Below, in pieces: positions 26,373 to 51,083 of a stretch of DNA of 64,000 bases. Made by a program: the position numbers and the translations under genes. A model generated the notes under the pieces. That model saw nothing but the letters and a program-made list of their open reading frames with translations. It made no database searches and was not told where the DNA came from. The first letter of the stretch is position 1, and the number at the start of each line of letters is the position of its first letter. The stretch is taken from NCBI GenBank assembly GCA_008501635.1, contig QQUJ01000007.1, positions 1 through 64,000 on the forward strand. Reading direction: 5' to 3'. The DNA comes from Pseudomonadota bacterium. Its GTDB lineage: Bacteria > Pseudomonadota > Gammaproteobacteria > QQUJ01.

Positions 26373-26377
26373 GGTAT

Positions 26378-27774: not shown

Positions 27775-27929
27775 TTCTCTCTTTTCCTCTCGCCAAGACG
27801 CGAAGAGCGCCAAGTCATCAAACTTGGATTGAATGGCTAGGAAACGTTAACGCCCCGCTTGCGGATGTGGTCTTCTGTCATGGTTCCAGTTTTCTTGGCG
27901 TCCTTTGCGTCTTGGCGAGAGAAAAATGA
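27775..27929. repeat. Imperfect inverted repeat with about 36-bp arms
   Basis: The left arm (about 27778-27814) contains CTCTCGCCAAGACGCGAAG, and the right arm (about 27894-27929) contains CTTTGCGTCTTGGCGAGAG, its near-complement. Roughly 30 of 36 positions pair across an 80-bp spacer. This looks like a dispersed repeat pair lodged between the mutase and hydroxylase genes. It could fold in RNA and affect read-through between the two operon halves. Confidence 0.7.
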
Positions 27930-27959
27930 TCTTTGCAAACATGAAATCCGGTACCCGGC

Positions 27960-29564: not shown

Positions 29565-29956
29565 TGCACCTTCTCATTGATGTAGTCGACGATCTCGCGC
29601 AGCTTGCTGCCCTGGGCGAAGATCGCATCGACGCCGATCGCCTGCAGCGCCGCATGATCCTGGGGCGGGACGTTGCCCCCCACCAGCCACACCTTGTCGC
29701 CCAGGCCGTGCTCGTCGAGCAGCACCTTCAGGCGCTGGCAGAAGGGGAGGTGCGAACCGGCCATGCTGGAGAGGCCGATCACATCCACATCCTCCTCCAT
29801 GGCCACCCGCGCCACCGCCTCGGGGGTCTGGCGCAGGCCGGTGTAGATCACCTCGAAACCGGCGTCCATCAGGGCCCGTACGACTACTTTGGCGCCCTGG
29901 TCGTGGCCGTCGAGGCCGGGTTTGGCGATCAGCACCCGGATACGCCGCTGGTTCAT
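29561..29956 (-). CDS. B12-dependent acyl-CoA mutase, small (cobalamin-binding) subunit
   Basis: Cobalamin-binding protein of 131 aa, the size of stand-alone mutase beta domains. The DxHxxG motif with the lower-axial His is in IAKPGLDGHDQGAKVVVRAL (about residues 10-29). The other two family signatures are GLSSMAGSHLPF near 61-72 and VWLVGGNVPPQD near 88-99. It pairs with the large subunit encoded immediately downstream. Its start overlaps the acyl-CoA dehydrogenase stop by four bases. Reactivation would be served by MeaB encoded at 42960-43910. Confidence 0.93.
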   Translation of the reverse strand: MNQRRIRVLIAKPGLDGHDQGAKVVVRALMDAGFEVIYTGLRQTPEAVARVAMEEDVDVIGLSSMAGSHLPFCQRLKVLLDEHGLGDKVWLVGGNVPPQDHAALQAIGVDAIFAQGSKLREIVDYINEKVQ

Positions 29957-31086: not shown

Positions 31087-31131
31087 GGGCTCAAGCCGCC
31101 TCGGTCACATTCACGTCAACCAAACCCGGTT

Positions 31132-31220
31132 CCCTCTCCCTCGGGGAGAGGGTTAGGGTGAGGGGCGTCACGGGATCGAAGTCCCTCCCCTCATCCCCTC
31201 CTTCTCCCCTGGGGAGAAGG
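31132..31220. repeat. Two GC-rich palindromes between the HyuB and acyl-CoA dehydrogenase genes
   Basis: CCCTCTCCC at 31132-31140 pairs with GGGAGAGGG at 31144-31152. CCTTCTCCCC at 31200-31209 pairs with GGGGAGAAGG at 31211-31220. They occupy a 167-bp gap inside an otherwise tightly packed operon. They look like a dispersed intergenic repeat of the type common in Gammaproteobacteria and may act as an RNA stabiliser or partial terminator. Confidence 0.65.
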
Positions 31221-31253
31221 AACTCGCCAAAAATCCTTTCTGAAGTTGCGGGT

Positions 31254-35086: not shown

Positions 35087-35099
35087 AGCGGTGAACTCC

Positions 35100-36638
35100 T
35101 CAACCTGCCGCTGCGCCCGCAGCGCTGGCGGCAACCATTTCACGAAGTATCTGTTTCTGGATCTTGCCCAGCGGATTGCGCGGCAGCGCGTCGACACAGA
35201 TCAGATCGCGCGGATGTTTGAAACGGGCGAGCTTGCCTTCGAAGAAGCTCGCCAGCGCCTCGCGATCCAGCGTGTGGCCGTTCTTCAGCACCACGACCGC
35301 CACCGGGATCTCGCCCCACTTGGCATCGGGCCGACCGACCACGGCGGCCTCGACGATCGCTTCGTGCCCGGCCAGCAGATTTTCCAACTCGGCGGGGTAG
35401 ATGTTCTCGCCGCCGCTGATGATCATCTCTTTCTTGCGGTCATCGACGTAGAGATAACCCTCGGCGTCGAGATGGCCCACGTCGCCGGTGTAATACCAGC
35501 CGTTGCGCAGGCACGCCGCCGTGGCTTCGGGCTGGTTCCAGTAGCCCGTCATCACATTGGGACCGCGAATCAGAATCTCGCCCGAAGCACCGCGCGCCAC
35601 CTCACGGTCCTGCTCGTCGACGATACGCATCTCGCAGTGCAGAGCGGCTTTTCCCGCCGAACCGGGTTTGCGCTGGGCATCGCTGCGCGTCAGGTAGGTG
35701 GCGATGGGCGAGGTTTCGGTGGCGCCATAGACCTGGATCAGCGGCACGCCGCGCGCATGCACCGCGGCGATGAGCGAGGCGGGAACCAGCGTCGATCCGG
35801 TGCTGATCACGCGCAGGCTGGAGAGATCGGTCGTCTGCCATTGCGGTGTGGCCAGGATGGCCACCAGCTGCGCCGGCACCAGGACGGTGAGCGTGATCGC
35901 CTGCTCGGCGATGGCCGCCAGGGTCGCCAGCGGATCGAAAGTGGCTTGCAGTGTGACCGTAGCGCCAGCATGCAGCGCCGGCAGGGTTTGGATATTAAGC
36001 CCGCCGACGTGAAACAGCGGCAAGCTGGTCAGCACCCGATCCTCGCTGGTGAGGTCGTGCATATGGGCGCTGTTGATGGCGGCATGGAGCAGCGCGTTCT
36101 GGCTGAGCAACGCGCCCTTGGGCAAGCCGGTAGTACCTGAGGTGTAGCAGAGCAGCAGCGGTGCATCGTAGCCCGCTTGACTGTCGCGGCCGCGTAGCGC
36201 GACGGCGTCCTCGAGCAGATCGGCATAGCCCAGCCAGCCCTGCGCGGGTTGACCGTAGGTTACCAGTGAGCGGCAGGCGATGCGTCCGCGATTCTCCTCC
36301 ACCCGCGCGACGAACTCCTCGCGCGCGAACAGCACCACCGGTTCGCAGTCGTTGACGATGGCGCGATGCTCGGGTGCCGCCAGCCGCCAGTTGAGGGGTA
36401 GAAAAATCGCGCCGACGCGTGCACAGGCCAGCAGCAGGATCAGCATCTCCGGGCTGTTGTAGCCTACGTAGGCGACGCGATCGCCCGCCCGCACCCGCAG
36501 CCGTTTCTGCAACACGCCGGCCAGGCGCGCCACGGCGACGGCCAGACCGGCGTAGCTGTAGCCACCCTCGCCGTAGCGCAGCGCCATCTTGTCCGGCGTG
36601 AAATCGGCGTGGCGGTCGATCCAGTCGGCAACGTTCAT
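35100..36638 (-). CDS. AMP-forming acyl-CoA synthetase (second ligase)
   Basis: ANL-superfamily acid:CoA ligase of 512 aa. Core motifs are LLCYTSGTTGLPKGALLSQN (A3/P-loop), VYGATETSPIA (A5), GWYYTGDVGHLDAEGYLYVD (A7) and a C-terminal NPLGKIQKQIL with the catalytic lysine (A10). The ATG at 36638 overlaps the stop of the preceding ligase by four bases and has a GGAGG site. Two adjacent ligases in one operon suggest activation of two different acids, for example the starting compound and a later carboxylated or cleaved intermediate. Confidence 0.92.
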   Translation of the reverse strand: MNVADWIDRHADFTPDKMALRYGEGGYSYAGLAVAVARLAGVLQKRLRVRAGDRVAYVGYNSPEMLILLLACARVGAIFLPLNWRLAAPEHRAIVNDCEPVVLFAREEFVARVEENRGRIACRSLVTYGQPAQGWLGYADLLEDAVALRGRDSQAGYDAPLLLCYTSGTTGLPKGALLSQNALLHAAINSAHMHDLTSEDRVLTSLPLFHVGGLNIQTLPALHAGATVTLQATFDPLATLAAIAEQAITLTVLVPAQLVAILATPQWQTTDLSSLRVISTGSTLVPASLIAAVHARGVPLIQVYGATETSPIATYLTRSDAQRKPGSAGKAALHCEMRIVDEQDREVARGASGEILIRGPNVMTGYWNQPEATAACLRNGWYYTGDVGHLDAEGYLYVDDRKKEMIISGGENIYPAELENLLAGHEAIVEAAVVGRPDAKWGEIPVAVVVLKNGHTLDREALASFFEGKLARFKHPRDLICVDALPRNPLGKIQKQILREMVAASAAGAAAG

Positions 36639-38185
36639 ACGCCCGCCTCCGCGCCCGCGATGGCCGTCAGCGCCTTTTTGTCGATCTTGCCCACCGTGGT
36701 GCGCGGCAATGCGTCCACAATTTCGATCAACGCGGGAACCTTGTACTTCACCAGGTTCGCCGTGCAATAGGTGCGCAGCGCCTCGCCGTCCAGCGTGCTG
36801 CCCGGCCGCAGGCCGACATAGGCGCGCAATTGCTCGCCGCGATAGCTGTCGGGCACTCCGACCACCGCCGCCTCCAGCACCTCGTCGTGGGCGCAGAGCA
36901 GCTCTTCGATCTCGCGCGGATAGACGTTGAAGCCACCGACGATCACCATCTCCTTCTTGCGCCCGGCGATGAACAGATAACCCTGCTCATCCAGATAGCC
37001 CAGATCGCCGGTGTGGAGCCAGCCGTCGCGCAGGGTCTCCGCCGTTTCCCTGGGCCGGTTGCGGTAGCCGTGCATGATCTGCGGTCCACGGGCACGGATC
37101 TCGCCAGGCTCCCCCGTGGGCAATACGCGGGTGCCGGTTTCGGTATCGACGATCTGGATCTCGGTGTAGGGCACGGCGATCCCCACGGAGAGCGGCCTGC
37201 GCTCGCCGCGCTCGGGATTGAAGCACAGCACCGGGCCGGACTCGGACTGACCGAAGCCTTCGAGCGTCTTGCAGCCCGTGGCCTGCTCCCAGGCCAGCAG
37301 CGTATCCACCGGCAGGCGCTCGGCGCCCGAATAACAGAGGCGCAGCGCCGAGAAATCGGTGCGCGCAAAATCCTCGTGCTGCATCAGTCCGGTGTAGATG
37401 GTCGGACTGCCGGGAAAGAGCGTGATGCGCCGTTCGGCCAGGGCGCCGAGCACCCAGTCGGGGCGGTAGCGCGGCAGAATCACCAGGGTGCCACGGCAAT
37501 AGCAGGTGAGGTGCAACGCCATGGCCACGGCGTAGACATGGAACATGGGCATGACGCAGAGCAGCCGTTCGCTCTCGGGGCGCGTCGGCAGCAGCGCCTC
37601 GCGCTGGCTGATGTTGAGCGCCATCTGTCCGTGGGTGATGTTCACTCCCTTGGGAATGCCGGTGGTACCGCCGGTGTATTGCAGCGTCGCCAGCTCTTCG
37701 GGATCAGGCGACGGCTGCGGGAGCTCCCGCGCCTCGTCGGCCCAGGCGATCAGGCGCCGTCCGGCAGCGCCGCCGACATGGACCGCGCAGGCAATGCCAG
37801 GTTTGGTCACCAACGGTTGTACCCGTTCGGCGGCCGCCTCATCGTATACCATCACCCGCGGCTCGGCGTCGGCGAGGATTTCACCCAGCTCGCGCGTCGA
37901 GTACATGGGATTGAGGGGCACCACCTGGGCACCCGCGGCATGCGCTGCGAACATCGCCACTGCGATATCGAGCGAGTTACCGAGCACCAGGGCAACCCGC
38001 TCGCCGCGCGCACCGTGCTCGATCAATTCATTGGCAAAACCGGCGACACAGCTCAGATACTGTCCGTAGGTGAGCGCTTCGTTGCCCATCTCCAGCGCGG
38101 GATGGTGCGGTGCGCGTGCGGCTGCATCGGCCAGCATGTGGACTACCGTCGGGAAGATCGGCGGCAGATCCGGGTAGGCGCTCAT
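36635..38185 (-). CDS. AMP-forming acyl-CoA synthetase (first ligase)
   Basis: ANL-superfamily ligase of 516 aa similar to long-chain fatty-acid or 4-coumarate-type CoA ligases. Core motifs are LQYTGGTTGIPKGVNITHGQ (A3), EGFGQSESGPV (A5), GWLHTGDLGYLDEQGYLFIA (A7), GFNVYPREIEELL (A8) and LPRTTVGKIDKKAL with the A10 lysine. The ATG at 38185 overlaps the thiolase stop by one base. It is the second gene of the long catabolic operon and probably activates the entry acid to its CoA thioester. Substrate not determined. Confidence 0.93.
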   Translation of the reverse strand: MSAYPDLPPIFPTVVHMLADAAARAPHHPALEMGNEALTYGQYLSCVAGFANELIEHGARGERVALVLGNSLDIAVAMFAAHAAGAQVVPLNPMYSTRELGEILADAEPRVMVYDEAAAERVQPLVTKPGIACAVHVGGAAGRRLIAWADEARELPQPSPDPEELATLQYTGGTTGIPKGVNITHGQMALNISQREALLPTRPESERLLCVMPMFHVYAVAMALHLTCYCRGTLVILPRYRPDWVLGALAERRITLFPGSPTIYTGLMQHEDFARTDFSALRLCYSGAERLPVDTLLAWEQATGCKTLEGFGQSESGPVLCFNPERGERRPLSVGIAVPYTEIQIVDTETGTRVLPTGEPGEIRARGPQIMHGYRNRPRETAETLRDGWLHTGDLGYLDEQGYLFIAGRKKEMVIVGGFNVYPREIEELLCAHDEVLEAAVVGVPDSYRGEQLRAYVGLRPGSTLDGEALRTYCTANLVKYKVPALIEIVDALPRTTVGKIDKKALTAIAGAEAGV

Positions 38186-39393
38186 CAGCGGGTATCCACC
38201 TGCAGCACCACCGCCATGGCGGTATCGCCCGCGGCGCAGCCCTCGAACAGCCCGTAACCGCCGCCGCGCAGCACCAGTTCCTCGATCAGTTCGATCACCG
38301 CCCGCATCCCGGTCGGCGCCTGGGGGTGGCCCCAGATCAGCGAACTGCCGTAGTTGTTCATGGTCATGGCATCGGCGCCCGTGGCGCGGGCAAAGGCGAT
38401 GTCGTTCACCGCAAAGGGATTGTGCGACTTGATGGCGTCCATGCGGGCGATGGGCAGATCGGCCATCGCCAGGGCGTTCTTTGCGGCAGGGATGGTGGCC
38501 TCGGGCATGTAGGCCAATTCGGCGCGCGCCTGACCGAAACCGAGCAGGCGGATGACGATGGCGGGATCGCGGCTCAGCGCCCGCGCCTGCTCCGGAGCCG
38601 CAAGAACGATGGCCGCGCTGCCGTCGGCCGGGTGAGTCTGTCCGCCGAAGGTGACGGTCCCGCCGTTCACCACGGGACGCAGCTTCGCCAGCCCCTCGGC
38701 GGTTGAGAGCGTGACGCCCTCGTCCCCTGTCAACTGCCCGACCGTTTTGCGGAAACTGCTGTTGGGCACGGCAAAGGGCAGCGTCATGAAGCGTTTCAGG
38801 AAGGCCCCATCATCGGCCAGGGCCATGCGGTACTGCTCGGTGCGCCGCAGCACCACGTCGTGCTGCTCGGCGGCGGTGATTCCGTGTTTTGCGGCGACGT
38901 TCTCCGCGGTCTGGATCATGGCGTGGTTGCCGAGCGGATCGCAGGAGAAATTGTCCATCACCCAGTTCTCGTGATCGCCGGTGCCGCCGGGACCCAGGGG
39001 ATTGGGGTAGTAGAGGTGCGGACCGTTGGAGGTGCGATCGCAGGTCACCGCCAGCGCCGCGGTCGCCAGACCGGTCTCGATCTCCTGGGTCGCGGCCAGC
39101 AGGCAGCGCGCTCCCGTGGCGCAGGCCTGGGCGATGGTCGGCCCGCCGACCTGGAGTGCCCCCGCCATCCCCATCAGCCAGGGCAGACCGTAAAAACTGT
39201 GCTTTTGCGGCACGCTGGTGCCCAGCACTCCGTAGTCGAAGATCGAACCGGGGATATCGCGCCGTTGCAATTCGTCGCGCACGACTTCGGCGGCAAACCG
39301 CACGCTGTGCAGCGTCGCGAAGCTTCCCTGCCATCGTGCAAAGGGCGTACTCCAGTACGCGCCGTAGGGAATCTCAGCCTTGAATGCGCTCAC
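38185..39393 (-). CDS. Thiolase-family protein
   Basis: Thiolase-like protein of 402 aa read from a GTG at 39393 with an AGGAGA site upstream. A longer reading to 39534 would cover the promoter side and has atypical composition. The active cysteine is in TIAQACATGARCLLAATQEI (Cys91). The second-half signatures are HNPFAVNDIAFARATGADAM with a family His and WGHPQAPTGMRAVIELIEEL. The C-terminal cysteine loop is altered (FEGCAAGDTAMAVV rather than C-G-G-G). It is the first gene behind the TetR-type palindromes and may perform the final thiolytic cleavage. Confidence 0.87.
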   Translation of the reverse strand: MSAFKAEIPYGAYWSTPFARWQGSFATLHSVRFAAEVVRDELQRRDIPGSIFDYGVLGTSVPQKHSFYGLPWLMGMAGALQVGGPTIAQACATGARCLLAATQEIETGLATAALAVTCDRTSNGPHLYYPNPLGPGGTGDHENWVMDNFSCDPLGNHAMIQTAENVAAKHGITAAEQHDVVLRRTEQYRMALADDGAFLKRFMTLPFAVPNSSFRKTVGQLTGDEGVTLSTAEGLAKLRPVVNGGTVTFGGQTHPADGSAAIVLAAPEQARALSRDPAIVIRLLGFGQARAELAYMPEATIPAAKNALAMADLPIARMDAIKSHNPFAVNDIAFARATGADAMTMNNYGSSLIWGHPQAPTGMRAVIELIEELVLRGGGYGLFEGCAAGDTAMAVVLQVDTR

Positions 39394-39610
39394 CCTGTCT
39401 CCTCCCGTGCCGGATTGGTCTGGTTGTCGGGGTCGGGTCGGGCGAGGGCACTCGCACTGGGCGCGCCGGGCCGATGGTCCGCCACGATCAGAGCGTGTAA
39501 TCTCCTCTCCTCCTCGATCCCCGACGCCGCACACTCGTTCTTAGAACCATTTTAGACTGCGGCACCGCTCTTGAAACGCTAACAAAATCCAGGATCGCTG
39601 TAAATGTCGT

Positions 39611-39628
39611 TTTTACAGACCTGTAAAA
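39611..39628. promoter_or_regulatory. Palindromic operator candidate 1
   Basis: TTTTACAGACCTGTAAAA is a perfect palindrome with 8-bp arms and a 2-bp centre in the divergent region between the thiolase and TetR genes. It shares TTTAC/GTAAA half-sites with three further sites at 39675, 47277 and 47364. Size and symmetry fit a TetR dimer site. Confidence 0.75.
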
Positions 39629-39635
39629 TAATCTA

Positions 39636-39664
39636 TTGCTTAATAAAGGGTGAATCAGTACATT
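39636..39664 (+). promoter_or_regulatory. Sigma-70-like promoter for the TetR gene
   Basis: TTGCTT at 39636-39641 and TACATT at 39659-39664 are separated by 17 bases. The pair lies between operator candidates 1 and 2 and about 60 bases upstream of the TetR ATG, fitting autorepression. A promoter for the divergent thiolase operon must also lie in this AT-rich 330-bp region, but I could not fix its boxes. Confidence 0.5.
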
Positions 39665-39673
39665 AGAAATCGT

Positions 39674-39693
39674 ATTTTACAACCAGTAAATCC
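39674..39693. promoter_or_regulatory. Palindromic operator candidate 2
   Basis: ATTTTACAACCAGTAAATCC lies 30 bases upstream of the TetR start. It equals the site at 47363-47382 at 16 of 20 positions, with all four differences in the central tetranucleotide. That is the pattern expected when only the half-sites are contacted by a dimeric repressor. Confidence 0.75.
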
Positions 39694-39723
39694 TTCTCAC
39701 AGCTAAGGGACGGGAAGCGGAGC

Positions 39724-40317
39724 ATGTCACGACGGGTACAGATTCTGCGCCGGGCCGCCGAGATATTCGAGCGCAAGGGCGTTGCCCAGACCTCCATCGA
39801 AGACATCGCCAACGAAGTCGGCATCAAACGTGAGGGGATCTACTATTACTTCAAAAGCCGCGAGGACATCCTGCTCGAACTGATCCTGCCACAGAGCAAT
39901 ATCCTGTTGCGCAACCTGCGCAATATCATGGCCGCGCAAGGCGACCATCTGGGCAAGCTTCATGCGGCCATGGAGATGCACCTCAGCAGCTACAGTCCCG
40001 GGTATCTGGAGACCACCGTCATGCTGCGCGAGAACCACATCTTCAAGGACCAGAAGAAACTCGACGCGCTGCGCAAGGTGTGGCGCGAGTATACCGACCT
40101 CTGGGTCCAGCTGGTCGCGGAAGGCCAGGCGGCGGGTGAGTTCCAGGCCGATCTCGATCCTAAAATGGCCTCCTATGGCATTCTCGGCATGTGCAACTGG
40201 ATGTCACGCTGGTACACGCCCGGCAAGGGGATGTCGATCGCGCAGATCACCGAAGATTTTTTCAGGCTGTGCGCCTTCGGCATCGCGGCTCCCGCTGCGC
40301 GGCCCGGGCCCACCTAG
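39724..40317 (+). CDS. TetR-family transcriptional regulator
   Basis: Regulator of 197 aa with an N-terminal TetR helix-turn-helix (residues about 5-50: RRAAEIFERKGVAQTSIEDI, then GIKREGIYYYFKSREDILLE) and a C-terminal ligand-binding domain of the type seen in fatty-acid and acyl-CoA-responsive members. It is transcribed divergently from the thiolase operon and heads a run with the XdhC and MoCF/MobA genes. Matching palindromes at its own promoter and before the ligase at 47559 suggest that it represses the whole island until an acyl-CoA intermediate binds. The ligand is inferred from context only. Confidence 0.92.
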   Translation: MSRRVQILRRAAEIFERKGVAQTSIEDIANEVGIKREGIYYYFKSREDILLELILPQSNILLRNLRNIMAAQGDHLGKLHAAMEMHLSSYSPGYLETTVMLRENHIFKDQKKLDALRKVWREYTDLWVQLVAEGQAAGEFQADLDPKMASYGILGMCNWMSRWYTPGKGMSIAQITEDFFRLCAFGIAAPAARPGPT

Positions 40318-40329
40318 GCACGCGCTGCG

Positions 40330-40653
40330 ATGCACCCCGGCGATCAGGAGTTGATGGAACAGGCCGCGCAGTGGCTCGACGCCGGCCTCGGCGTCGCCCT
40401 GGCGACCGTGGTCCAAACCTGGGGCTCGTCGCCGCGACCGGTGGGCAGCCATCTGCTGGTCAACGACAGAGGCGAATTTTCCGGTTCCGTTTCCGGCGGC
40501 TGTGTCGAGACCACGGTGGTTCAGGAAGCGCAGACGGTGATTCGCGATGGCACGCCACAGATGCTGGATTTTGGCGTCACCAACGAACGCGCCTGGGAAG
40601 TCGGACTCTCCTGCGGCGGGACCATTCAGGTCTACGTGGAGCCTCTGCGGTGA
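40330..40653 (+). CDS. XdhC/CoxI-type molybdenum hydroxylase maturation protein, N-terminal module
   Basis: Small protein of 107 aa equal to the N-terminal XdhC_CoxI domain. Visible signatures are GLGVALATVVQTWGSSPRPV, SVSGGCVETTVVQEA and DFGVTNERAWEVGLSCGG with the conserved cysteines. XdhC proteins bind the molybdenum cofactor, help its sulfuration and insert it into xanthine-dehydrogenase-family enzymes. Here the usual single protein is split, with the Rossmann part encoded by the next gene, which overlaps by four bases. The client is probably the hydroxylase at 24051-27707. Confidence 0.9.
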   Translation: MHPGDQELMEQAAQWLDAGLGVALATVVQTWGSSPRPVGSHLLVNDRGEFSGSVSGGCVETTVVQEAQTVIRDGTPQMLDFGVTNERAWEVGLSCGGTIQVYVEPLR

Positions 40654-41342
40654 AACGTCTCCTGCTCGACCAGCTGCGTGCATTCCAACAGGCGCATCGT
40701 TCGCTGGCCCTGGTCACCCGTCTCGCCGACGGCGCGCAAGCGCTGGTCTGCTGCAACGAAAGCCGGGGCGATCTGGAACTCAACCTCGAGCAGCTCAAGC
40801 AAGTGCGCCAGCTGTTGCTCAACAACCGCAGCGCATCGCTGGCCGGGGAAGGGCTGTTCGTGCGCAGCTACTCACCTCCGTTGCGGCTGATCATCGTCGG
40901 CGCGGTGCACATCAGCCAGCTCCTCGCACCCATGGCGGCGTTGGCGGGATTCGATGTCGTGGTGGTCGATCCCCGTCAGGCCTTCGCCGATGCGCAGCGG
41001 TTCCCGGGCACCGAACTGCGCGCACAATGGCCGGAGCAGGCCTTCACCGAGCTGCATCCCGACGAGCGCACCGCGGTGGTGACCTTCACTCACGATCCCA
41101 AGATCGACGATCCCGCGCTGTGCGCGGCGCTGCAGAGCCCCGCCTTCTACGTCGGCGCACTCGGCAGTCGCCGCACCCACGCAGCACGCCTGGAGCGGCT
41201 GAGGGAACAGGTGCCGGGCGCCGATTTGACGCGCATCCACGCGCCCATTGGCTTGAATCTGGGCGGCCGCGAACCGGGGGAGATCGCAGTCGCTGCCCTG
41301 GCGCAGATCGTCGAGCAGCGCAACCGCGAGGTGATGCCATGA
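40650..41342 (+). CDS. XdhC-type maturation protein, Rossmann module
   Basis: Protein of 230 aa read from a GTG at 40650 that overlaps the previous stop. The C-terminal XdhC Rossmann domain is recognised by LRLIIVGAVHISQLLAPMAA, VVTFTHDPKIDDPALCAALQ, FYVGALGSRRTHAARLERLR and the terminal HAPIGLNLGGREPGEIAVAA. The first about 80 residues are less conserved and may contact the small XdhC partner. It works with the preceding protein in cofactor insertion. The next gene overlaps by four bases. Confidence 0.9.
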   Translation: MKRLLLDQLRAFQQAHRSLALVTRLADGAQALVCCNESRGDLELNLEQLKQVRQLLLNNRSASLAGEGLFVRSYSPPLRLIIVGAVHISQLLAPMAALAGFDVVVVDPRQAFADAQRFPGTELRAQWPEQAFTELHPDERTAVVTFTHDPKIDDPALCAALQSPAFYVGALGSRRTHAARLERLREQVPGADLTRIHAPIGLNLGGREPGEIAVAALAQIVEQRNREVMP

Positions 41343-42952
41343 TCTTCGGCGAGTTTCCGCTGCATGACGCTGAAGGCGTGCTGCTCGCTCATAGCCTGCG
41401 GTTGCCCGAGCGCACGCTGCGCAAGGGACGGCGCCTGGGAGCGCCCGAAATCGAAGCCTTGCGAGCGGCCAACCGCGAGTCTGTGTACGGCTGTCGTCTG
41501 GATGTCGAGGACGTGGACGAGAATCAGGCGGCCGCCCAGGTAGCGGCCGTATTGCAGGGCGACGGGACCCACGCCGCACGACCCGGCGCCGGCCACTGCA
41601 ACCTGGTGGCCGATGTCGCCGGTCTGGTGCGACTCGATCCCCACCGTATCGAAGCACTCAATCTGCTCGACGAGGACCTGCTGGTCGCCACTGCGGCGCC
41701 CTGGCAGCGGGTCGCGCCCGGGGACCTGGTGACACGCGTAAAAATCGCCTCTTTCGCCATTCCCGGCCAGCGCCTGGAACATTGCCTTGACGCCATCGAC
41801 GCCAGCGCAACCCGCATCGCGGTTGCACCGTTCCGGCAACTGCGGGTCGCGCTGATCCTGACCCGGCTTGGCGCAGGCGACGAAAAACGAACCAGCGAGC
41901 TCCGTGACGGCATGCAGCGGCGGTTGGTACAACTGGGTAACGGTATCGACCTGGAGATCACCTGCGGGCACCAGCCCCAGGCGGTGGCCGCGGCGATCGC
42001 CCGGGCACGCGGCGCGGGGTGCGAACTGATCATCATCGGCGCCGCCTCGGCCACCGTGGATCGCGCTGACATGATCCCCGCAGGCATCCGCCTTAGCGGT
42101 GGCCGCATCGAGCGCTTCGGCTTCCCCCTGGAACCGGGCAGCATGCTGGTGCTGGCCCGGCAGGACGACACCCCCATCCTGGTACTGCCCGGCTGCGCCC
42201 GTTCACCCAAACCCAACGGGCTCGACGGGCTGCTGGCGCGCATCGTCGCGGGCCACCCCCCCAGCGACACCGAGATGGCCCGATGGGGCTGCGGAGGACT
42301 GTTGCCCGGGCAGCGCGCCAAGCCGGAGGGTGACGCAAAATCCAACGAACGGGCGAAGTCAGAGCAGCCCCGAATCGCGGCTATCGTGCTGGCCGCGGGC
42401 CGCTCGCAGCGCATGGGGGATGACAACAAGCTGCTGCGGCCGGTAGCGGGAACTCCGATGGTCCGCCATGCCGTCAATGCCGCGTTGGGCGTTCCCCTGG
42501 CCGGTGTGGTGGTGGTGACGGGACACCAGCACGAACAGATCGCCGCCACTCTCAGCGCTCACGACATCACGCTGGCGCACAACCCCGACTACGCCAGTGG
42601 TCTCTCCTCCTCGCTGCGCGCCGGCCTGGCCGCGCTCCCCGCCGGCATCGACGGCGTCGTCGTCCTGCTCGGCGATATGCCGCTGGTCACCGCCGCGCAT
42701 CTGGCGCGCATCCTCGATGCCTTCGCACCCGATGCGGGGCGCAGCATTATCGTGCCCACGTTCGAGGGGACGCGCGGCAATCCGGTGCTCTGGTCGCGGC
42801 GGTTCTTCCCCGAAATGATGGCACTGGAGGGCGATGTGGGTGCGCGCCGGCTGATGCGCCAGTATCCCGATCTGGTCTTTGATCTGGCGATGGACGATGC
42901 GGCAGTGCTGACCGATATCGACACACCCGGGACCCTCGCCGACTTGAAGTAA
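41339..42952 (+). CDS. Molybdopterin-binding/MobA-like nucleotidyltransferase fusion
   Basis: A 537-residue fusion. The N-terminal about 340 residues contain a MoCF (MoaB/MoeA-like) molybdopterin-binding domain (CELIIIGAASATVDRADMIP; PGSMLVLARQDDTPILVLPG). The C-terminal about 190 residues form a MobA/MocA-type nucleotidyltransferase starting IAAIVLAAGRSQRMGDDNKL and including GVVVLLGDMPLVTAAHLARI. MocA-type enzymes make the cytosine dinucleotide form of the cofactor used by this hydroxylase family. It ends the TetR-XdhC run and converges with meaB, 7 bases apart. It probably supplies the hydroxylase encoded in the same island. Confidence 0.9.
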   Translation: MIFGEFPLHDAEGVLLAHSLRLPERTLRKGRRLGAPEIEALRAANRESVYGCRLDVEDVDENQAAAQVAAVLQGDGTHAARPGAGHCNLVADVAGLVRLDPHRIEALNLLDEDLLVATAAPWQRVAPGDLVTRVKIASFAIPGQRLEHCLDAIDASATRIAVAPFRQLRVALILTRLGAGDEKRTSELRDGMQRRLVQLGNGIDLEITCGHQPQAVAAAIARARGAGCELIIIGAASATVDRADMIPAGIRLSGGRIERFGFPLEPGSMLVLARQDDTPILVLPGCARSPKPNGLDGLLARIVAGHPPSDTEMARWGCGGLLPGQRAKPEGDAKSNERAKSEQPRIAAIVLAAGRSQRMGDDNKLLRPVAGTPMVRHAVNAALGVPLAGVVVVTGHQHEQIAATLSAHDITLAHNPDYASGLSSSLRAGLAALPAGIDGVVVLLGDMPLVTAAHLARILDAFAPDAGRSIIVPTFEGTRGNPVLWSRRFFPEMMALEGDVGARRLMRQYPDLVFDLAMDDAAVLTDIDTPGTLADLK

Positions 42953-42959
42953 CCCCTGT

Positions 42960-43910
42960 TCAGTCTTGCGTTCGGCGTTGATCGATCAATTGATCGAGCG
43001 CTTCCGGTACGGTTGTCTCACCGGCGCGAATCGCATCGCAGAGACGATCGAGATGATCACTCTCCCCAATATTCCATTCGGCCAGCAAACGCTGCGCCAA
43101 CGCCTCGGCCAACAGGCGCCGCAGATGCCGGCGGCGTTTCAGCAGCCGGTGTTCAGGCGTTGCGGTTGCCGCGACCTTCAACATCGCATCCACGCACGGC
43201 GCGAGCCCGGACCCGTTCAACACATCGGTGAGCAGCACCGGCAGTTCGCGACCGCTGCCGTGCAGCGTCAGCGCAAGCCGCTCGGCGTAGCTGGACGCAC
43301 CGGGCAGATCGGCCTTGTTGACCAGCACCAGATCGACCACCTCCAGCACCCCGGCCTTCTGTGCCTGAACCTCGTCGCCCAGACCGGGGGCGCAGATCAG
43401 AACGTTGACATCCGCCACCTCGACGATGGCGGTTTCCGATTGTCCGACGCCGACGGTCTCAATGATGATCACATCGCGTCCGGCGGCATCCATCACATCC
43501 ACGGCCTGGCTCACCACCGGCGCGAGCCCGCCGAGGCTGCCGCGTGAAGCGACGGAGCGCACGAACACACCGGGATCGGCACCGATATGGTCGGTCATGC
43601 GCAGACGGTCGCCCAGCAGCGCGCCGCCACTGCGTTGACTGGAGGGATCGACGGCGATCACGCCGACGCTGAGTTCACGCCGCCGCAACTCGGCGACCAG
43701 TGCGCCGGTCAAGGTCGATTTACCCACTCCCGGCGCCCCCGTCAGTCCAATCACCCGGGCGTTGCCGAGATGCGGTTGGATCGCCGCCAGCAACTCGCCG
43801 GCCCAGGTGACGTTTCTTTCCAGCGCGGAAATCGCGCGCGCGAGAACATCGACGCGTCCTGCACAAAGCTGCGTCACCAGCGTTTTCATGTCGGGGTTTT
43901 GTGAGCTCAC
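42960..43910 (-). CDS. meaB: MeaB-type GTPase chaperone of B12-dependent mutase
   Basis: G3E-family GTPase of 316 aa (MeaB/ArgK). The P-loop is VIGLTGAPGVGKSTLTGALV (about residues 53-72), followed by VGVIAVDPSSQRSGGALLGD, the switch segment IIIETVGVGQSETAIVEVAD and the base-specificity motif LVLVNKADLPGA. MeaB proteins protect and reload adenosylcobalamin in methylmalonyl-CoA-type mutases. The mutase in this window is encoded at 27960-29956, about 13 kb away, so both belong to the same island. It is transcribed in the same direction as the TRAP genes upstream, 60 bases apart. Confidence 0.93.
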   Translation of the reverse strand: MSSQNPDMKTLVTQLCAGRVDVLARAISALERNVTWAGELLAAIQPHLGNARVIGLTGAPGVGKSTLTGALVAELRRRELSVGVIAVDPSSQRSGGALLGDRLRMTDHIGADPGVFVRSVASRGSLGGLAPVVSQAVDVMDAAGRDVIIIETVGVGQSETAIVEVADVNVLICAPGLGDEVQAQKAGVLEVVDLVLVNKADLPGASSYAERLALTLHGSGRELPVLLTDVLNGSGLAPCVDAMLKVAATATPEHRLLKRRRHLRRLLAEALAQRLLAEWNIGESDHLDRLCDAIRAGETTVPEALDQLIDQRRTQD

Positions 43911-43970
43911 AGCCGGCCGAACCCCGGGTGATGCACGTGCAGGCTGGCGCGGCTGTGGTTCACAGGGGCG

Positions 43971-45287
43971 TCAACCCATGAGCGATGGGAGATAGAGCGA
44001 CAGCGGCGGGATGAAGACCAGCAACATGAGGCGCACGATATCCATGCACCAAAACGGCGTCACCCCGCGGAAAATGGTGGAGAGTTTCACCTCCGGCAGT
44101 ACGCTGCGCAGCACGAAGACATTCAATCCGACCGGTGGCGTGATCAGACTGATCTCGGTGACAACCACGATCACGATGCCAAACCAGATGAGCACCATCT
44201 CCGGATCCATAAAATCACCAAAATCGAGTCCCACCATCACCGGATAAAAAACGGGTACTGTAAGCAGGATCATGGAGAGACTCTCCAGCACACAACCGAG
44301 GATCACATAAACGCCCATGATCAGCACCACCACGATCAGCGGCGAGACATCGAGCGAGGTGACCCACTCGACCAACCCTGTAGGCAGACTGGTGATGTTG
44401 ATGTAGTTCGAAAACATCAAGGCGCCGATCAGCACGAAAAAGATCATGCTGGTGGTGCGCACGCTCTCGACGAGGACGTCGAAAATCCCTCTCAGGGTCA
44501 GTCGCCGGCGGGCCAGCGCAAACAGGAAACTCCCCGAGGCGCCGATACCGGCGGCTTCGGTCGGCGTAAACACACCGCCGTAGATACCGCCAATCACCAA
44601 CACGAAAAGCACCACTACGCCCCACACTCCGCGCAAGGCTATCAGTCGCTCGTGCCAGCCGGTGCGAATGCCGGGCGGACCCGATTTTGGATTGAGCCGC
44701 ACCGTGATCATGACGGCGACGAGATAGAGCATCACGCCGAGGATGCCGGGCACCACACCGGCAATGAACAGCTTACCGATGTCCGATTCGGTGAGTATGC
44801 CGTAGATCACCAGGATGACGCTGGGTGGAATGAGAATCCCCAGCGTGCCGCCCGCAGCGATGCTGCCGGTCGCCAGCGCATCCGAATAACCGAAGCGGCG
44901 CATCGGTGGATAGGCCACCTTCGACATGGTTGCAGCGGTGGCGAGACTCGATCCGCAGACCGCGCTAAAACCGCCGCAGGCCACCACGGTCGCCATGGCG
45001 AGTCCGCCGCGCCGGTGCCCGAGAAACGCATTGGAGGCTTGATAGAGTTCGTCGGAGAGCCCGGCCCGGGAGACAAAATTACCCATCAGGATGAACAGCG
45101 GCACCACCGAGAGGCTATAGGAGAGGCCCGTCTCGTAGGTCGCTGTCGTCGCCATCTTCAGCGCGGGCTCCCAACCGACCACAAGCCCGTAACCAATGTA
45201 TCCCACGATACCCATGGCGAAGGCGATGGGCACGCGCAGGGCGATCAGCCCGAGCATGCCGGCAAAGGCAATAAACGCTTCCGACAT
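43971..45287 (-). CDS. TRAP transporter large permease subunit (DctM)
   Basis: Membrane protein of 438 aa with about 12 helices, a normal DctM. The ATG at 45287 shares one base with the DctQ stop. Family signatures are PLFILMGNFVSRAGLSDELY, CGGFSAVCGSSLATAATMSK, AAGGTLGILIPPSVILVIYG and SLITPPVGLNVFVLRSV. Together with the small permease and binding protein it forms a sodium-coupled uptake system for a carboxylate, likely the island's substrate. Confidence 0.93.
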   Translation of the reverse strand: MSEAFIAFAGMLGLIALRVPIAFAMGIVGYIGYGLVVGWEPALKMATTATYETGLSYSLSVVPLFILMGNFVSRAGLSDELYQASNAFLGHRRGGLAMATVVACGGFSAVCGSSLATAATMSKVAYPPMRRFGYSDALATGSIAAGGTLGILIPPSVILVIYGILTESDIGKLFIAGVVPGILGVMLYLVAVMITVRLNPKSGPPGIRTGWHERLIALRGVWGVVVLFVLVIGGIYGGVFTPTEAAGIGASGSFLFALARRRLTLRGIFDVLVESVRTTSMIFFVLIGALMFSNYINITSLPTGLVEWVTSLDVSPLIVVVLIMGVYVILGCVLESLSMILLTVPVFYPVMVGLDFGDFMDPEMVLIWFGIVIVVVTEISLITPPVGLNVFVLRSVLPEVKLSTIFRGVTPFWCMDIVRLMLLVFIPPLSLYLPSLMG

Positions 45288-45829
45288 CAGAGCCTGTCTT
45301 TGTGAAGTTGATCGTGTCCGGTCAGCGTCCACCAGGCCATGCCGAGCAACACCACTCCGGTGAAGGCCAGCATCCCGCTCATGAAATAGACCAGCGGGGA
45401 GATGGGAATGCTCAGGATAGCGGTGGTATCCCCGTAATTCAGCATTTCGTCGGCCTTCTCCCACATGCTGACGCAGAGGACGAAGAGGATCAGACCACTG
45501 AGGAGGGAGATCAAGGCATCGCGAAAGTGCTGGATCGATGAGGGGATCATGGCGTCGAACAGATCGACCGTTATCTGCTCGCCGCTCAGGGTGACCAGCG
45601 GCAATGCGGCAAAGATCAGCGTGGCCAGCAGCAGTTCGGTGATTTCGAAGCCGCCCGGCACGGGGGCATTGAAAAAGTAGCGTCCGATCACGTCGACGAA
45701 GGTCAGCACCATCATGCAGAACAGCAAAACGGCTGCGACGCCGCCCAACAGCCAGTGGAGCACCATCCCCACCTTGCCGCCAGACGGCGCCGCGACTTCA
45801 GACGCCGGTTGATTACTGCCTGAACTCAC
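45287..45829 (-). CDS. TRAP transporter small permease subunit (DctQ)
   Basis: Membrane protein of 180 aa with four predicted helices, starting at a GTG at 45829. The DctQ signature FVDVIGRYFFNAPVPGGFEI (about residues 44-63) and the LSGEQITVDLF segment are clear. It is flanked by its binding-protein and DctM genes with gaps of 10 and minus 1 bases. Confidence 0.92.
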   Translation of the reverse strand: MSSGSNQPASEVAAPSGGKVGMVLHWLLGGVAAVLLFCMMVLTFVDVIGRYFFNAPVPGGFEITELLLATLIFAALPLVTLSGEQITVDLFDAMIPSSIQHFRDALISLLSGLILFVLCVSMWEKADEMLNYGDTTAILSIPISPLVYFMSGMLAFTGVVLLGMAWWTLTGHDQLHKDRL

Positions 45830-45839
45830 CTGAACTCAA

Positions 45840-46871
45840 CTATTTGCCTTCGATCTTGGCGATCTCTGCACGCAGCGCGCTCATGATGGCGGCGCCATCC
45901 GCGCCCTTGGCGTTGGCTTCGCTCACCCACCCCTGCTCGACACCGGCCGTCGCTTTCTTGATCTGCCCCACCAGCGCATCGGAAGCGGTTGAAAGCGTGA
46001 CGCCGTCTTCCTTCATCCTGGCGATACCGATCTGATCGACGTTGTCCCACGCCTTGCCCGAAAGCCGCGCAAAGTTCTCACCGGAGACCTTCATGATCGC
46101 GTCCTGGTCCGCTTTGGGCAGTTCACCAAAAGTCTTGCTGTTCATGACCAGGAAGAAACTGGTGTTGTAGAGCCCCTTGGGCACCAGCGTGCCGTAATGC
46201 ACCAGTTTGGTCAGCTTGAACGAGGCGACCGATTCGCTCGGGAAGAAGACACCGTCGGCCACACCGTTGGACATCAGTTCGTACGCTTGCGAGGCAGGTT
46301 TGAGCAGCGCGGTGGCGCCGATGGCCTGTGCGATGTCATTGACTACACCACCACCGACACGGATCTTCAGGCCGTTAAGATCTTCAAGAGCATTGACGGC
46401 TCGCTTGGAGTTGAAGATATGACCTGGGCCATGGGTGAAGACCGACAGCAGCGTCACGCCGTCGTGTTCGTTGGCCTTCTCCATGTACTGCTTGTAAACG
46501 CGCCAATAGGCGACCGAGGTCGATTCGGCACTGTCACCCAGGAACGGCATCTCCACCGCCTTGGTCAGCAGGAAGCGACCCGGCTGATAGCCATGTACGC
46601 CGAAGGTCACATCAGCGACGCCGTCTTTGGCCAGATCGAAGTGAGCGGGCGGCTTACCCAGCGGTTTGGGCAGCACGTTGACTTTGACGCGCCCCTGTGT
46701 GGCCTCGGCGACCTGCTCTGTCCAGGGAATGATCATATCCCGGACGATAGGGTGGCCCGGCGGCAGCCAGGACGATAGGCGCAGTGTCGTTTCCGCCATG
46801 GAGGACGGCGCAATCAATGTACAACTTAGTACTAGTGCTGCAGCGGTGGCAATACGAAGCTTGTGTAACAT
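45840..46871 (-). CDS. TRAP transporter solute-binding protein (DctP)
   Basis: Periplasmic binding protein of 343 aa with a signal peptide (cleavage probably after SSMA near residue 25). The mature start is TTLRLSSWLPPGHPIVRDMI. The ligand-anchoring region VNALEDLNGLKIRVGGGVVN contains the conserved Arg that binds substrate carboxylates. The ATG at 46871 follows GGAGGAGAG. A start six codons upstream would cover that site. It is divergent from the ligase operon at 47559, across a 690-bp region with operator-like palindromes. Confidence 0.93.
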   Translation of the reverse strand: MLHKLRIATAAALVLSCTLIAPSSMAETTLRLSSWLPPGHPIVRDMIIPWTEQVAEATQGRVKVNVLPKPLGKPPAHFDLAKDGVADVTFGVHGYQPGRFLLTKAVEMPFLGDSAESTSVAYWRVYKQYMEKANEHDGVTLLSVFTHGPGHIFNSKRAVNALEDLNGLKIRVGGGVVNDIAQAIGATALLKPASQAYELMSNGVADGVFFPSESVASFKLTKLVHYGTLVPKGLYNTSFFLVMNSKTFGELPKADQDAIMKVSGENFARLSGKAWDNVDQIGIARMKEDGVTLSTASDALVGQIKKATAGVEQGWVSEANAKGADGAAIMSALRAEIAKIEGK

Positions 46872-47276
46872 TTTCTCTCTCCTCCCCAAAGGGTGCCTTC
46901 AGGTGCCATTGGTCCATGGTCTCCCGGATCGGGATACCCACTTCTTAACCGGCTACCCGCCCGTTGCGGACCGATAGCCTGTATACGGATTATTTAAAGC
47001 ATCTTGTCCTAAGGAGTCCCTGCAAACGGCAACCGCTTACGCACATCCTGTGTCTGCGGCAATCGCTCTTGTCGGCGTATGCAGGTTAGTATGACTGTCT
47101 ATCATCAATCGGTCGGCACCAGCACCGCGCGCAGCCTTAAGTGTAGACAGTATGAATGCGGCTGCGATGTTGCGCTGGATCAATTGTATGTCCCGGCAAC
47201 CCGACGGGCTTCTAATGGCCCACTTTCCTGCGTTGGACACGCTAGCAAACTCAATTCACGAAGTAAACCAATGAAA

Positions 47277-47293
47277 TTTACAGTTACGTAAAA
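47277..47293. promoter_or_regulatory. Palindromic operator candidate 3
   Basis: TTTACAGTTACGTAAAA has TTTAC and GTAAA half-sites with a six-base centre. The spacing is the same as in candidate 1 (39611-39628). Confidence 0.65.
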
Positions 47294-47362
47294 CTGCAAC
47301 TAGGGCCTTGGATAAGGCAGTGCTATGATTTCCTCGGTGAGCGATAAGCCGATAACAAGATG

Positions 47363-47382
47363 ATTTTACACTTCGTAAATCC
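47363..47382. promoter_or_regulatory. Palindromic operator candidate 4
   Basis: ATTTTACACTTCGTAAATCC matches candidate 2 (39674-39693) at 16 of 20 positions, with both outer octamers identical. It is 176 bases upstream of the ligase ATG. Confidence 0.75.
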
Positions 47383-47558: not shown

Positions 47559-49394
47559 ATGAGTACCCCACCGCGTTCAAAACTGCATTTTGCGCCTCCG
47601 GCAGTGGAATCCGAACCCCTGGCGGGCGGCGGCATGATACTGCGCTCGACGCAGCCGCTGGAGGCCTATGCGGATAATGTGCCGCTGCTGTTGCGCCACT
47701 GGGCCGAGGCGGCTCCCGAGCGCATCTTTCTCGCCGAACGGGGTGCGGACGGGGCATGGATCACGCTCAGCTATGCTGAGGTACGCCTTCAGGTCGATGC
47801 CATAGCGCAGGCCCTGCTCGACCGCAAGCTGCGGCCCGAAGCACCGCTCATGATTCTCTCGGACAACGGTATCGGCAACGCGCTGATGCAACTGGGTGCG
47901 ATGACCGCCGGCATCCCCGCCGCACCGATCTCGCCGGCCTATTCGCTGATGTCGCAGGATCACTCCAAGCTCAAGCACATTTTTTCGCTGCTGCGCCCGC
48001 AGCTGATTTACATCGCCGACGGGCAGAAATTTGCCAACGCACTGGGCGCACTCGATGTGTCCGATGTCGAGGTGGTGGTCAGCGCCAACCCGATCGCGGG
48101 GAGGGAGTGCACGTCACTGACGTCGTTGCTGAGTACGCCGGTCACTCCGGCCGTGGATGAGGCACTCATCCGGGTCGGCCCCGATAGCATCGCCAAGATC
48201 CTTTTCACCTCCGGCTCGACGGGACTGCCCAAGGGGGTCATCAACACGCAGCGCATGCTCTGCTCCAACCAGCAGGCGATCGTGCAGCTCTGGCCGTTTC
48301 TCAAGGAGCGGCCGCCGGTGGTGGTGGACTGGCTGCCCTGGAACCACACCTTTGGCGGCAATCACAACTTCAACCTGGTGTTGTTCAACGGCGGTTCACT
48401 CTATGTGGACAACGGCAAGCCGGTGCCGGGTCTGATCGAGAACACGGTGGCCAATCTGCGCGAGATCTCGCCCACGCTCTATTTCAACGTGCCGCGCGGG
48501 TTCGATGTGCTGCTGCCGTTCCTGGAGCAGGACAGCACCCTGCGCGACAACTTCTTCCGCGAGCTGGACCTGATCTTCTACGCCGGCGCCGCGCTGCCGC
48601 AGAATCTGTGGGAACGGCTGGAAGCGTTGTCGATCCAGGCGCGTGGCGAAAGAGTGCACATGGTCTCGGCCTGGGGCTCCACGGAGACCGCGCCCATGGT
48701 CACCACTGTCCATTTCCCCATCGACCGCGCCGGTGTGATCGGACTGCCCGCCCCGGGCACCGCGCTCAAGTTCGTCCCCAACAGCGGCAAACTGGAGCTG
48801 CGTGTGCGCGGGCCCAATATAACGCCCGGCTACTGGCGCAACCCGGAGCAGACCCGCGAGGCTTTCGACGCGGACGGCTACTACTGCATAGGCGACGCCG
48901 GCAAGCTCGTCGACCCGCAGGATCCCGCGCAGGGTGTGGTATTCGACGGTCGCGTCGCCGAGGACTTCAAGCTCAGCTCGGGCACGTGGGTACATGTGGG
49001 CAGCGTACGCGTGGAGGCGATCGCCGCCACTGCGCCGGTGGTTCAGGATGCCGTGGTCACCGGCCATAACCGTGACGAAATCGGTCTGCTGGTATTTCCC
49101 AACCCTGCCGGGTGCAAAAGCCTGTGCCCCGATGCATCCACCGCTATGGCACCCGGTGATCTGATCCAGCGCCCCGAAGTCCGTGAAAAATTGCGCGCGG
49201 GCCTGGCGAGTTACAACCGCGGCAAAAGCAACAGCCAGCGCATCGCCCGCGCGCTGCTGATGGCGGAACCACCGGATATCGATGCCAACGAGATCACCGA
49301 CAAAGGCTACATCAACCAGCGGGCGGTGCTGGAACGGCGCGCAGAACTGGTGGAGCGCCTCTACGCGGGCGGCGGCGATGTGCTCGTGCTCTAG
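47559..49394 (+). CDS. Feruloyl-CoA-synthetase-like AMP-forming ligase
   Basis: ANL-superfamily ligase of 611 aa, longer than the other two in the window. ILFTSGSTGLPKGVINTQRM is the P-loop. VVDWLPWNHTFGGNHNFNLV, then GGSLYVDNGKP, and VHMVSAWGSTETAP are typical of feruloyl-CoA synthetases and close relatives. The ATG at 47559 has AGGAGG upstream. The first about 50 residues have an extended N terminus seen in this subgroup. It is co-transcribed with an acyl-CoA dehydrogenase 12 bases downstream. It may activate a phenylpropanoid or another acid imported by the divergent TRAP system; ferulate itself is not established. Confidence 0.88.
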   Translation: MSTPPRSKLHFAPPAVESEPLAGGGMILRSTQPLEAYADNVPLLLRHWAEAAPERIFLAERGADGAWITLSYAEVRLQVDAIAQALLDRKLRPEAPLMILSDNGIGNALMQLGAMTAGIPAAPISPAYSLMSQDHSKLKHIFSLLRPQLIYIADGQKFANALGALDVSDVEVVVSANPIAGRECTSLTSLLSTPVTPAVDEALIRVGPDSIAKILFTSGSTGLPKGVINTQRMLCSNQQAIVQLWPFLKERPPVVVDWLPWNHTFGGNHNFNLVLFNGGSLYVDNGKPVPGLIENTVANLREISPTLYFNVPRGFDVLLPFLEQDSTLRDNFFRELDLIFYAGAALPQNLWERLEALSIQARGERVHMVSAWGSTETAPMVTTVHFPIDRAGVIGLPAPGTALKFVPNSGKLELRVRGPNITPGYWRNPEQTREAFDADGYYCIGDAGKLVDPQDPAQGVVFDGRVAEDFKLSSGTWVHVGSVRVEAIAATAPVVQDAVVTGHNRDEIGLLVFPNPAGCKSLCPDASTAMAPGDLIQRPEVREKLRAGLASYNRGKSNSQRIARALLMAEPPDIDANEITDKGYINQRAVLERRAELVERLYAGGGDVLVL

Positions 49395-49406: not shown

Positions 49407-51083
49407 ATGAACGATTTCCGCAGCCCCGTCGACGATATTCTCTTCACCCTGGAGCACGGCGCCGATGCCGCGCGCCTGCCCGACTGGGATCCCGATCTGG
49501 CCGCCGAGATCGTCGGGCACGCCGCCCGCTTCATTGACGAGCGCATCGCCCCCCTCGATCCGCTGGGCGACGGCGAGGGGGCACGACTGGAATCGGGGCG
49601 CGCCCGACTGCCCGCACCCTTCGTTGCTGCCTATCGTGACTACGCCGCCGCCGGCTGGCCCGGTCTGACGGCACCCGAGGCCTATGGCGGACAGAGTCAG
49701 CCCGAAGTGCTCGGTGGTGTGGTCTCCGAACTGCTCTCCGGCGCCTGCGTCGGACTGCAGACCCTGCTGTCGCTGGGGCAGGGGTCCGCGCGCACGCTGT
49801 TGCGCCACGGCTCCGATCACCAGAAGGCGCGCTACCTGCCGCGACTGGTCTCCGGCGAGTGGCTGGCCACCATGTGCCTGACGGAACCGGCGGCGGGTTC
49901 CGACCTGGGACGTATCAGCACCGTGGCAACCCCGGAGGGTGATGGCTGGCGTCTGAGCGGCACCAAGATTTTCATCACCGGCGGCGACCAGAATCTCACC
50001 GACAACATTCTGCACCTGGTGTTGGCGCGCACCGCCGGCGCACCGGCTGGGGTGAAAGGGCTGGCACTCTTTCTCTGCCCGGCCGTGCTCGAGGATGGTT
50101 CGCGCAACGCGGTGGCCGTGATGCGCCTTGAGGAGAAGATGGGACTACACGCCTCGCCCACCTGCCAACTGGCCTTCGACGGCGCACAAGCGGAAATCCT
50201 CGGCGCTCCCGGTGAGGGACTGGCGCGCATGTTCACCATGATGAACGCCACGCGGCTGGATGTCGGGCTGCAGGGGGTCGGGCTCGCGGAGGCTGCCAGT
50301 CAGCGCGCCTGGCGCTATGCCGCCGAGCGCGTGCAGGGGCGCAGCGGCCGTAGCGGCGAAAGCGCCGATCCCATCTTCCGTCACGGCGACGTGCAGCGCA
50401 TGCTGCTCCACCAGCAGGCGCTGACCGCCGGGTGCCGCGCCCTCTCCTATCGCACCGCCGTCGATCTGACGCTCGGCGATCAGCCCGCCCTCATCGAATT
50501 CCTGACGCCGGTCTGCAAAGCATTCTGCACCGACTCGGCGCTGCTGGCGGCCAATCTCGCGCTGCAGGTCCACGGGGGATACGGCTACACCCGCGAGTAT
50601 CGGGTCGAGCAGGTACTGCGTGATACGCGCATCACTCTCATCTACGAAGGCACCAATGGCATCCAATCGATGACTCTGGCGGGAAGGTTGTTGCACGCCG
50701 CCAACGGCGCGTGTGTTGCGGCCTTCGAGGAGGAGATCGGCAGACAGATCGCGGCCATCCAGGCGGCCGATCATGACGCCATGGCGCAGGCGGTGACCAT
50801 CGCGCTGGAGCAGTGGCGGCGCGCCACCAACGTTCTGCTGTCCGCCGCCGACCCCGCCCCGGTGGCCGAGGCTTACCTGCGCCTGACCGGCCTGGTCGCT
50901 TTTGGCGCGGTGTGGGGATTGATGGAGAGGGGTTTCGCCGCAACGGCGAATCCCCCGCGGTGGCAGGCACTGGCCGATTTTGTGCGCCTGCGCCTGTTGC
51001 CCGAGACCGCCTGGCTCGCCGAGGTCATCAGCAACGGCGACCAGTACGCGCCGGCCGCCGAAGAGGTGTTCAGCGGCGCTTAA
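49407..51083 (+). CDS. Acyl-CoA dehydrogenase with C-terminal extension (DmdC-like)
   Basis: Acyl-CoA dehydrogenase of 558 aa, belonging by length and pattern to the group with an extra C-terminal domain (as in 3-methylmercaptopropionyl-CoA dehydrogenase). The FAD segment is CLTEPAAGSDLGRISTVATP and TKIFITGGDQNLTDNI. The catalytic glutamate is conserved in RITLIYEGTNGIQSMTLAGR, unlike the enzyme at 29953-31086. Second gene of the feruloyl-CoA-synthetase-like operon. Its stop overlaps the convergent enoyl-CoA hydratase stop by four bases. Confidence 0.92.
   Translation: MNDFRSPVDDILFTLEHGADAARLPDWDPDLAAEIVGHAARFIDERIAPLDPLGDGEGARLESGRARLPAPFVAAYRDYAAAGWPGLTAPEAYGGQSQPEVLGGVVSELLSGACVGLQTLLSLGQGSARTLLRHGSDHQKARYLPRLVSGEWLATMCLTEPAAGSDLGRISTVATPEGDGWRLSGTKIFITGGDQNLTDNILHLVLARTAGAPAGVKGLALFLCPAVLEDGSRNAVAVMRLEEKMGLHASPTCQLAFDGAQAEILGAPGEGLARMFTMMNATRLDVGLQGVGLAEAASQRAWRYAAERVQGRSGRSGESADPIFRHGDVQRMLLHQQALTAGCRALSYRTAVDLTLGDQPALIEFLTPVCKAFCTDSALLAANLALQVHGGYGYTREYRVEQVLRDTRITLIYEGTNGIQSMTLAGRLLHAANGACVAAFEEEIGRQIAAIQAADHDAMAQAVTIALEQWRRATNVLLSAADPAPVAEAYLRLTGLVAFGAVWGLMERGFAATANPPRWQALADFVRLRLLPETAWLAEVISNGDQYAPAAEEVFSGA

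Follow-up and report, generated by a model that had tools for sequence, protein, structure and literature searches.

The window analyzed here, a 64,000-nucleotide stretch of DNA, carries a gene for a TetR-family regulator of 197 amino acids (39724..40317, forward strand) that lies divergent from a long leftward set of catabolic genes. The first gene of this set encodes a thiolase (38185..39534, reverse strand; assigned with Pfam), whose start codon is probably the GTG at 39393, judging from the GGAGGAG that precedes it in the reverse-complement sequence. The rest of the set (22864..38185, reverse strand), a block that is conserved beside orthologous tetR genes, encodes two acyl-CoA ligases, hydantoinase/caprolactamase-like A and B subunits, an acyl-CoA dehydrogenase, the two subunits of a B12-dependent acyl-CoA mutase, a CoA transferase III, and the FAD and molybdopterin subunits of a molybdenum hydroxylase. 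The caprolactamase-like subunits are related to CapAB and were not filed as caprolactamase, as their scores of 673.5 and 369.4 bits fell below the NCBIfam cut-offs of 1000. The genes at 22864-39534 thus bring together a caprolactamase-like ATP-dependent enzyme, a B12 acyl-CoA mutase, and a molybdenum hydroxylase in an uncharacterised pathway, which nine loci, mostly alphaproteobacterial by name, share next to their tetR orthologues. Downstream of tetR lie genes for the N-terminal part of XdhC, its Rossmann part, and a MobA-like NTP transferase (40330..42952, forward strand; Pfam), which serve molybdenum cofactor supply. Further to the right, genes for a TRAP transporter (DctP, DctQ, and DctM) and a MeaB-like mutase GTPase (42960..46889, reverse strand; Pfam) diverge from an acyl-CoA synthetase gene, hereafter the ligase (47559..49394, forward strand), which belongs to the NCBIfam PRK12582 subfamily (843.6 bits against a cut-off of 777), lies behind the second predicted target promoter, and is followed by an acyl-CoA dehydrogenase gene (49407..51083, forward strand; Pfam).

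The assignment of the regulator to the TetR family was based on an N-terminal TetR_N helix-turn-helix (PF00440, E 6.1e-14; 52 bits against a cut-off of 24) and a C-terminal ligand and dimer domain of the TetR type (PF17932, TetR_C_24; E 5.7e-23). Its scores with two more specific NCBIfam models, the Bacillus-type FadR (NF053878; 58.8 bits) and SACE_7040 (NF050111; 63.4 bits), were below the respective cut-offs of 200 and 250.

Four palindromes with TTTAC/GTAAA half-sites were present in the window, and, as the initial annotation had described, they occurred as pairs in two divergent intergenic regions 7.7 kb apart: region A (39394-39723), between the leftward thiolase gene and the rightward tetR, and region B (46872-47558), between the leftward TRAP transporter gene and the rightward ligase. 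Each region contained one TTTAC-N6-GTAAA and one TTTAC-N5-GTAAA palindrome, with the N6 site on the left, a difference in spacing that the annotation had not recorded. The predicted operators of region A are operator 1 (N6; 39612..39627, TTTACAGACCTGTAAA), whose palindrome extends to 39611-39628 (TTTTACAGACCTGTAAAA), and operator 2 (N5; 39676..39690, TTTACAACCAGTAAA; longer form ATTTTACA-ACCA-GTAAATCC from 39674), which lies 34-48 bp upstream of tetR. Those of region B are operator 3 (N6; 47277..47292, TTTACAGTTACGTAAA; site sequence TTTACAGTTACGTAAAA from 47277) and operator 4 (N5; 47365..47379, TTTACACTTCGTAAA; longer form ATTTTACA-CTTC-GTAAATCC from 47363), which are located approximately 180-280 bp upstream of the ligase start and 400-500 bp upstream of dctP. 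As had been noted, operators 2 and 4 have the same octamer on either side, and only the four bases at the center distinguish them. From the coordinates, the centers of the paired sites are 63.5 bp apart in region A and 87.5 bp apart in region B. The ORF maps showed no other divergent junction between about 20 and 53 kb, in agreement with the earlier statement that these are the only two large divergent regions of the island; divergent junctions elsewhere in the window were observed at 6127/7026 and 53931/54084. Scans of both regions detected neither a sigma-70-like promoter nor a terminator.

We addressed the conservation of the palindrome by scanning the DNA around tetR, starting 400 bp before the gene and ending 150 bp after it, in 25 relatives of the regulator drawn from genome contigs, with the pattern TTTTAC-N5/6-GTAAAA and at most one mismatch. 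A site was observed beside tetR in 15 of the 25 (L037-L048, L051, L053, and L059), compared with 0.255 expected from shuffles, and L037 has an N5 site in a place comparable to that of operator 2. The occurrence of sites followed the recognition helix: 15 of the 17 relatives with a helix of the type xRE[GA]xYYY had a site, and none of the eight with another helix did. The two exceptions are a near-identical pair with a helix close to this type (L049 and L050), in which no site adjoins tetR and three TTAC-N6-GTAA palindromes lie within approximately 230 bp, some 6.5-6.7 kb before tetR and upstream of an acyl-CoA ligase gene. The surroundings were conserved as well, with homologues of the catabolic genes of the window adjoining tetR on the opposite strand, as in the window, in all nine loci from L037 to L045, and with xdhC and mobA homologues downstream of tetR in L037. 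These results supported a link, by phylogenetic footprinting, between the palindrome and the orthologues of the TetR protein; a palindromic operator in the promoter of the regulator's own gene, a trait of the TetR family, was recognized here by footprinting only.

The N6 sites showed a further conserved feature. An extra half-site, GTAAA, precedes the right half of operator 1 by 23 bp, start to start (39600..39604), and that of operator 3 by 25 bp (47263..47267). When 22 N6 sites were tested, 12 had such a GTAAA 21-25 bp, or about two helical turns, ahead of the right half, compared with 0.44 expected, a count in which the 12 cases are not independent because the sequences are related; one of them (L138) carries the extra half-site as a mirror image on the other side. 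Among loci of the tetR/thiolase type, it was found in region A, L037-L043, L045, and L161 and was absent from L044, so that eight of the nine loci L037-L045 possess it; in L043, L045, and L161, where the downstream site of a palindrome pair was the one scored, the extra GTAAA belongs to a complete second palindrome. This arrangement suggests that two dimers may sit side by side at the N6 site. A more elaborate version, in which one TetR protein reads both the N6 and N5 spacings together with a third half-site about two turns away, so that adjacent dimers occupy a conserved complex operator through which the two promoters may be linked, perhaps by a DNA loop of 7.7 kb, is a tentative idea that we regard as rather doubtful.

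Taken together, we consider it very probable that the four palindromes are the operators of the one local TetR repressor encoded at 39724, which probably responds to an acyl-CoA and controls both promoters. In the mechanism that we infer, the TetR dimer would bind TTTTACR-N4-YGTAAAA, would accept a spacing one base shorter, and would act as a repressor rather than an activator. At 39.6 kb, it would repress its own presumed operon (tetR-xdhC-mobA) and the divergent catabolic operon, the limits of both being those suggested by gene order; at 47.3 kb, repression would fall on the ligase gene, on the acyl-CoA dehydrogenase gene after it, and perhaps on the divergent TRAP-meaB genes. The repressor would probably be released by a CoA thioester of the presumed pathway, a proposal drawn from the genes themselves and from KstR2, the named solved structure nearest in sequence to the regulator, and genes for uptake, activation, the mutase, the lactamase-like enzyme, and the molybdenum enzyme would thereby be induced together.

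Our confidence in control of the second promoter, taken by itself, is lower than that in the reading as a whole. We compared 24 loci with homologues of the ligase from 14 genomes, taking approximately 1.5 kb on each side, and no site was found in 20 of them, including the closest orthologues (56-64% identical) with the exception of L117 (57%), in which the site lies downstream of the gene. A full site upstream of a ligase homologue was seen in L122 (G066) only, and the sites beside the homologues in L117, L126, and L131 are imperfect or downstream. The ligase/acyl-CoA dehydrogenase pair also occurs in L137, and in L134 the two genes are divergent with a site between them. Because most ligase orthologues are without a site, recruitment of the ligase to the regulon seems to have occurred in this genome and in few besides. 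The earlier proposal that the TetR protein controls both promoters was supported by footprinting and by the multi-promoter site sets of relatives described below, and was less secure on the ligase side.

The same scarcity of sites at ligase orthologues is what favors the foremost alternative, namely, that the TetR protein controls the thiolase/tetR region only and that the sites before the ligase belong to another regulator or are relics. We judge this unlikely. When the 64 kb were scored with a matrix derived from 19 N6 sites of relatives, with none from the window, operator 1 ranked first and operator 3 second, at 32.6 and 29.4 bits, with the third match at 12.5 bits; operators 2 and 4 have their outer octamers in common, the extra half-site occurs in both regions, and G066 has a site at the ligase/dehydrogenase pair. 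Moreover, the genome showed no close paralogue of the TetR protein, the best one reaching only E 6.7e-5 over residues 7-77.

A second alternative, that the palindrome is the site of a global regulator from another family that acts on the cluster incidentally, was addressed by the distribution of the motif within and between genomes. In the own genome (3,929,709 bases, 3.93 Mb), the exact N6 palindrome was found at two places, both in the window, and the exact N5 palindrome at five, two of them in the window. The initial annotation had raised the question of whether the motif is equally frequent at unrelated promoters, which, genome-wide, was not the case for N6. When three mismatches to the longer consensus were allowed, N6 occurred at 31 places, compared with 35 for a reversed control, which indicates that only the two N6 sites of the window stand out; N5 occurred at 49 places, compared with 27. 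Regarding the three additional exact N5 places, C10:458532 is near the end of an ORF, and C30:17727 lies between ORFs near what appears, from reading the sequence, to be a sigma-54-type response regulator. The third, C5:40577 (L141:5578), is intergenic; the genes that follow it after approximately 490 bp encode a PEP-utiliser domain protein, a PPDK_N protein, and UbiD and resemble phenylphosphate synthase/carboxylase genes of anaerobic phenol degradation. This place might be a third target of the TetR protein, although nothing else points there.

In 12 whole genomes of relatives, the exact N6 palindrome occurred 38 times, compared with 42 for the reversed-pattern control, and these background numbers are what a global regulator could appeal to; the number of N6 sites alone therefore shows nothing, and the signal is in their position. 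Of the 40 exact N6 sites in these 12 relatives and the own genome combined, at least 22 adjoin tetR or homologues of the genes of the window, a lower bound, since the surroundings of only part of the remaining sites were read. Several genomes have sites at more than one such promoter. G064 (Paramagnetospirillum caucaseum), with sites on two contigs, has one at tetR/thiolase and another before a MaoC gene that adjoins meaB and CoA-transferase homologues; in addition, an N5 site lies upstream of a ligase homologue. In G066, one site follows tetR and one separates the ligase homologue from that of the acyl-CoA dehydrogenase. In G067, two sites follow tetR, another precedes a hydantoinase-A homologue, and a further one adjoins an SDR and ligase pair; two promoters of G063 each carry an N6 site with an N5-type site. 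Searching with the motif alone also led, in G071, to neighboring genes for a thiolase (69% identity) and a TetR orthologue (53% identity), the latter absent from the scan of 25 relatives; two N6 sites 22 bp apart are found at this tetR/thiolase pair, and another site directly follows a ligase homologue. We rejected a global regulator as very improbable, because exact N6 sites are restricted to two in the own genome and because, across genomes, the sites go with the tetR gene and its helix type.

Chance origin of palindromes in AT-richer intergenic DNA, which the GC fraction of 0.52-0.53 in regions A and B would favor more than GC-rich DNA would, was rejected as scarcely credible, since it is contradicted by the conservation in relatives and since, in 20,000 dinucleotide shuffles of each region, at least one N5 or N6 site arose nine times for region A and 23 times for region B and two sites never arose in either.

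With respect to the origin of the cluster, no TetR orthologue was found at E <= 1e-30 among 368 other genomes of the own class, which left the second promoter without a close relative for comparison. This absence from the sampled class genomes suggests that the cluster was acquired from outside the class, and, considered with the names of the relatives' records, it allows the guess that the donors were Alphaproteobacteria.

For an uncharacterised pathway that combines a B12-dependent acyl-CoA mutase, an ATP-dependent lactamase-like enzyme, and a molybdenum hydroxylase, the operator would provide a test of membership. On this basis, the ligase and dehydrogenase encoded 7 kb away are predicted to take part in the same pathway as the leftward genes, as perhaps do the TRAP transporter and MeaB, and the ligand of the TetR protein is predicted to name a pathway intermediate.

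Regulation of this kind is of an ordinary and familiar type, here in an uncharacterised pathway, and no paper on this operator or regulon was found in the open-licence literature searched. The closest precedent is KstR2 of mycobacteria and rhodococci, a local TetR repressor whose palindrome recurs at three promoter regions within a single catabolic cluster (PMC3068626) and whose ligand is HIP-CoA (PMC8700777). The KstR2 operator, AnCAAGnnCTTGnT, and the pathway genes differ from those of the window (PMC3068626); nothing in the window matched AnCAAGnnCTTGnT exactly, and two places (31256 and 31450) matched it with one mismatch, about as expected by chance (0.92). LiuQ, FadP, and PsrA are likewise TetR regulators of acyl-CoA pathways, with regulons derived from comparative genomics, but their targets lie in branched-chain amino acid and fatty acid degradation (PMC5343134). 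EdcR of Caenibius tardaugens is a TetR repressor, probably autoregulated, whose palindrome recurs at several promoters of the catabolic cluster that it controls; however, its proposed operator is TnnCnnTACnAnTnGTAnnGnnA, and its effectors are steroids rather than a CoA thioester (PMC8700777). In half-site sequence, FadR, a TetR-family protein of Thermus thermophilus, resembles the present system: it acts, as proposed for the window, on fatty-acid/acyl-CoA genes, and its half-sites TTRNAC...GTNYAA are similar to TTTTAC...GTAAAA, although three bases separate AC and GT there, compared with five or six here, and both the organism and the targets differ (PMC5597230).
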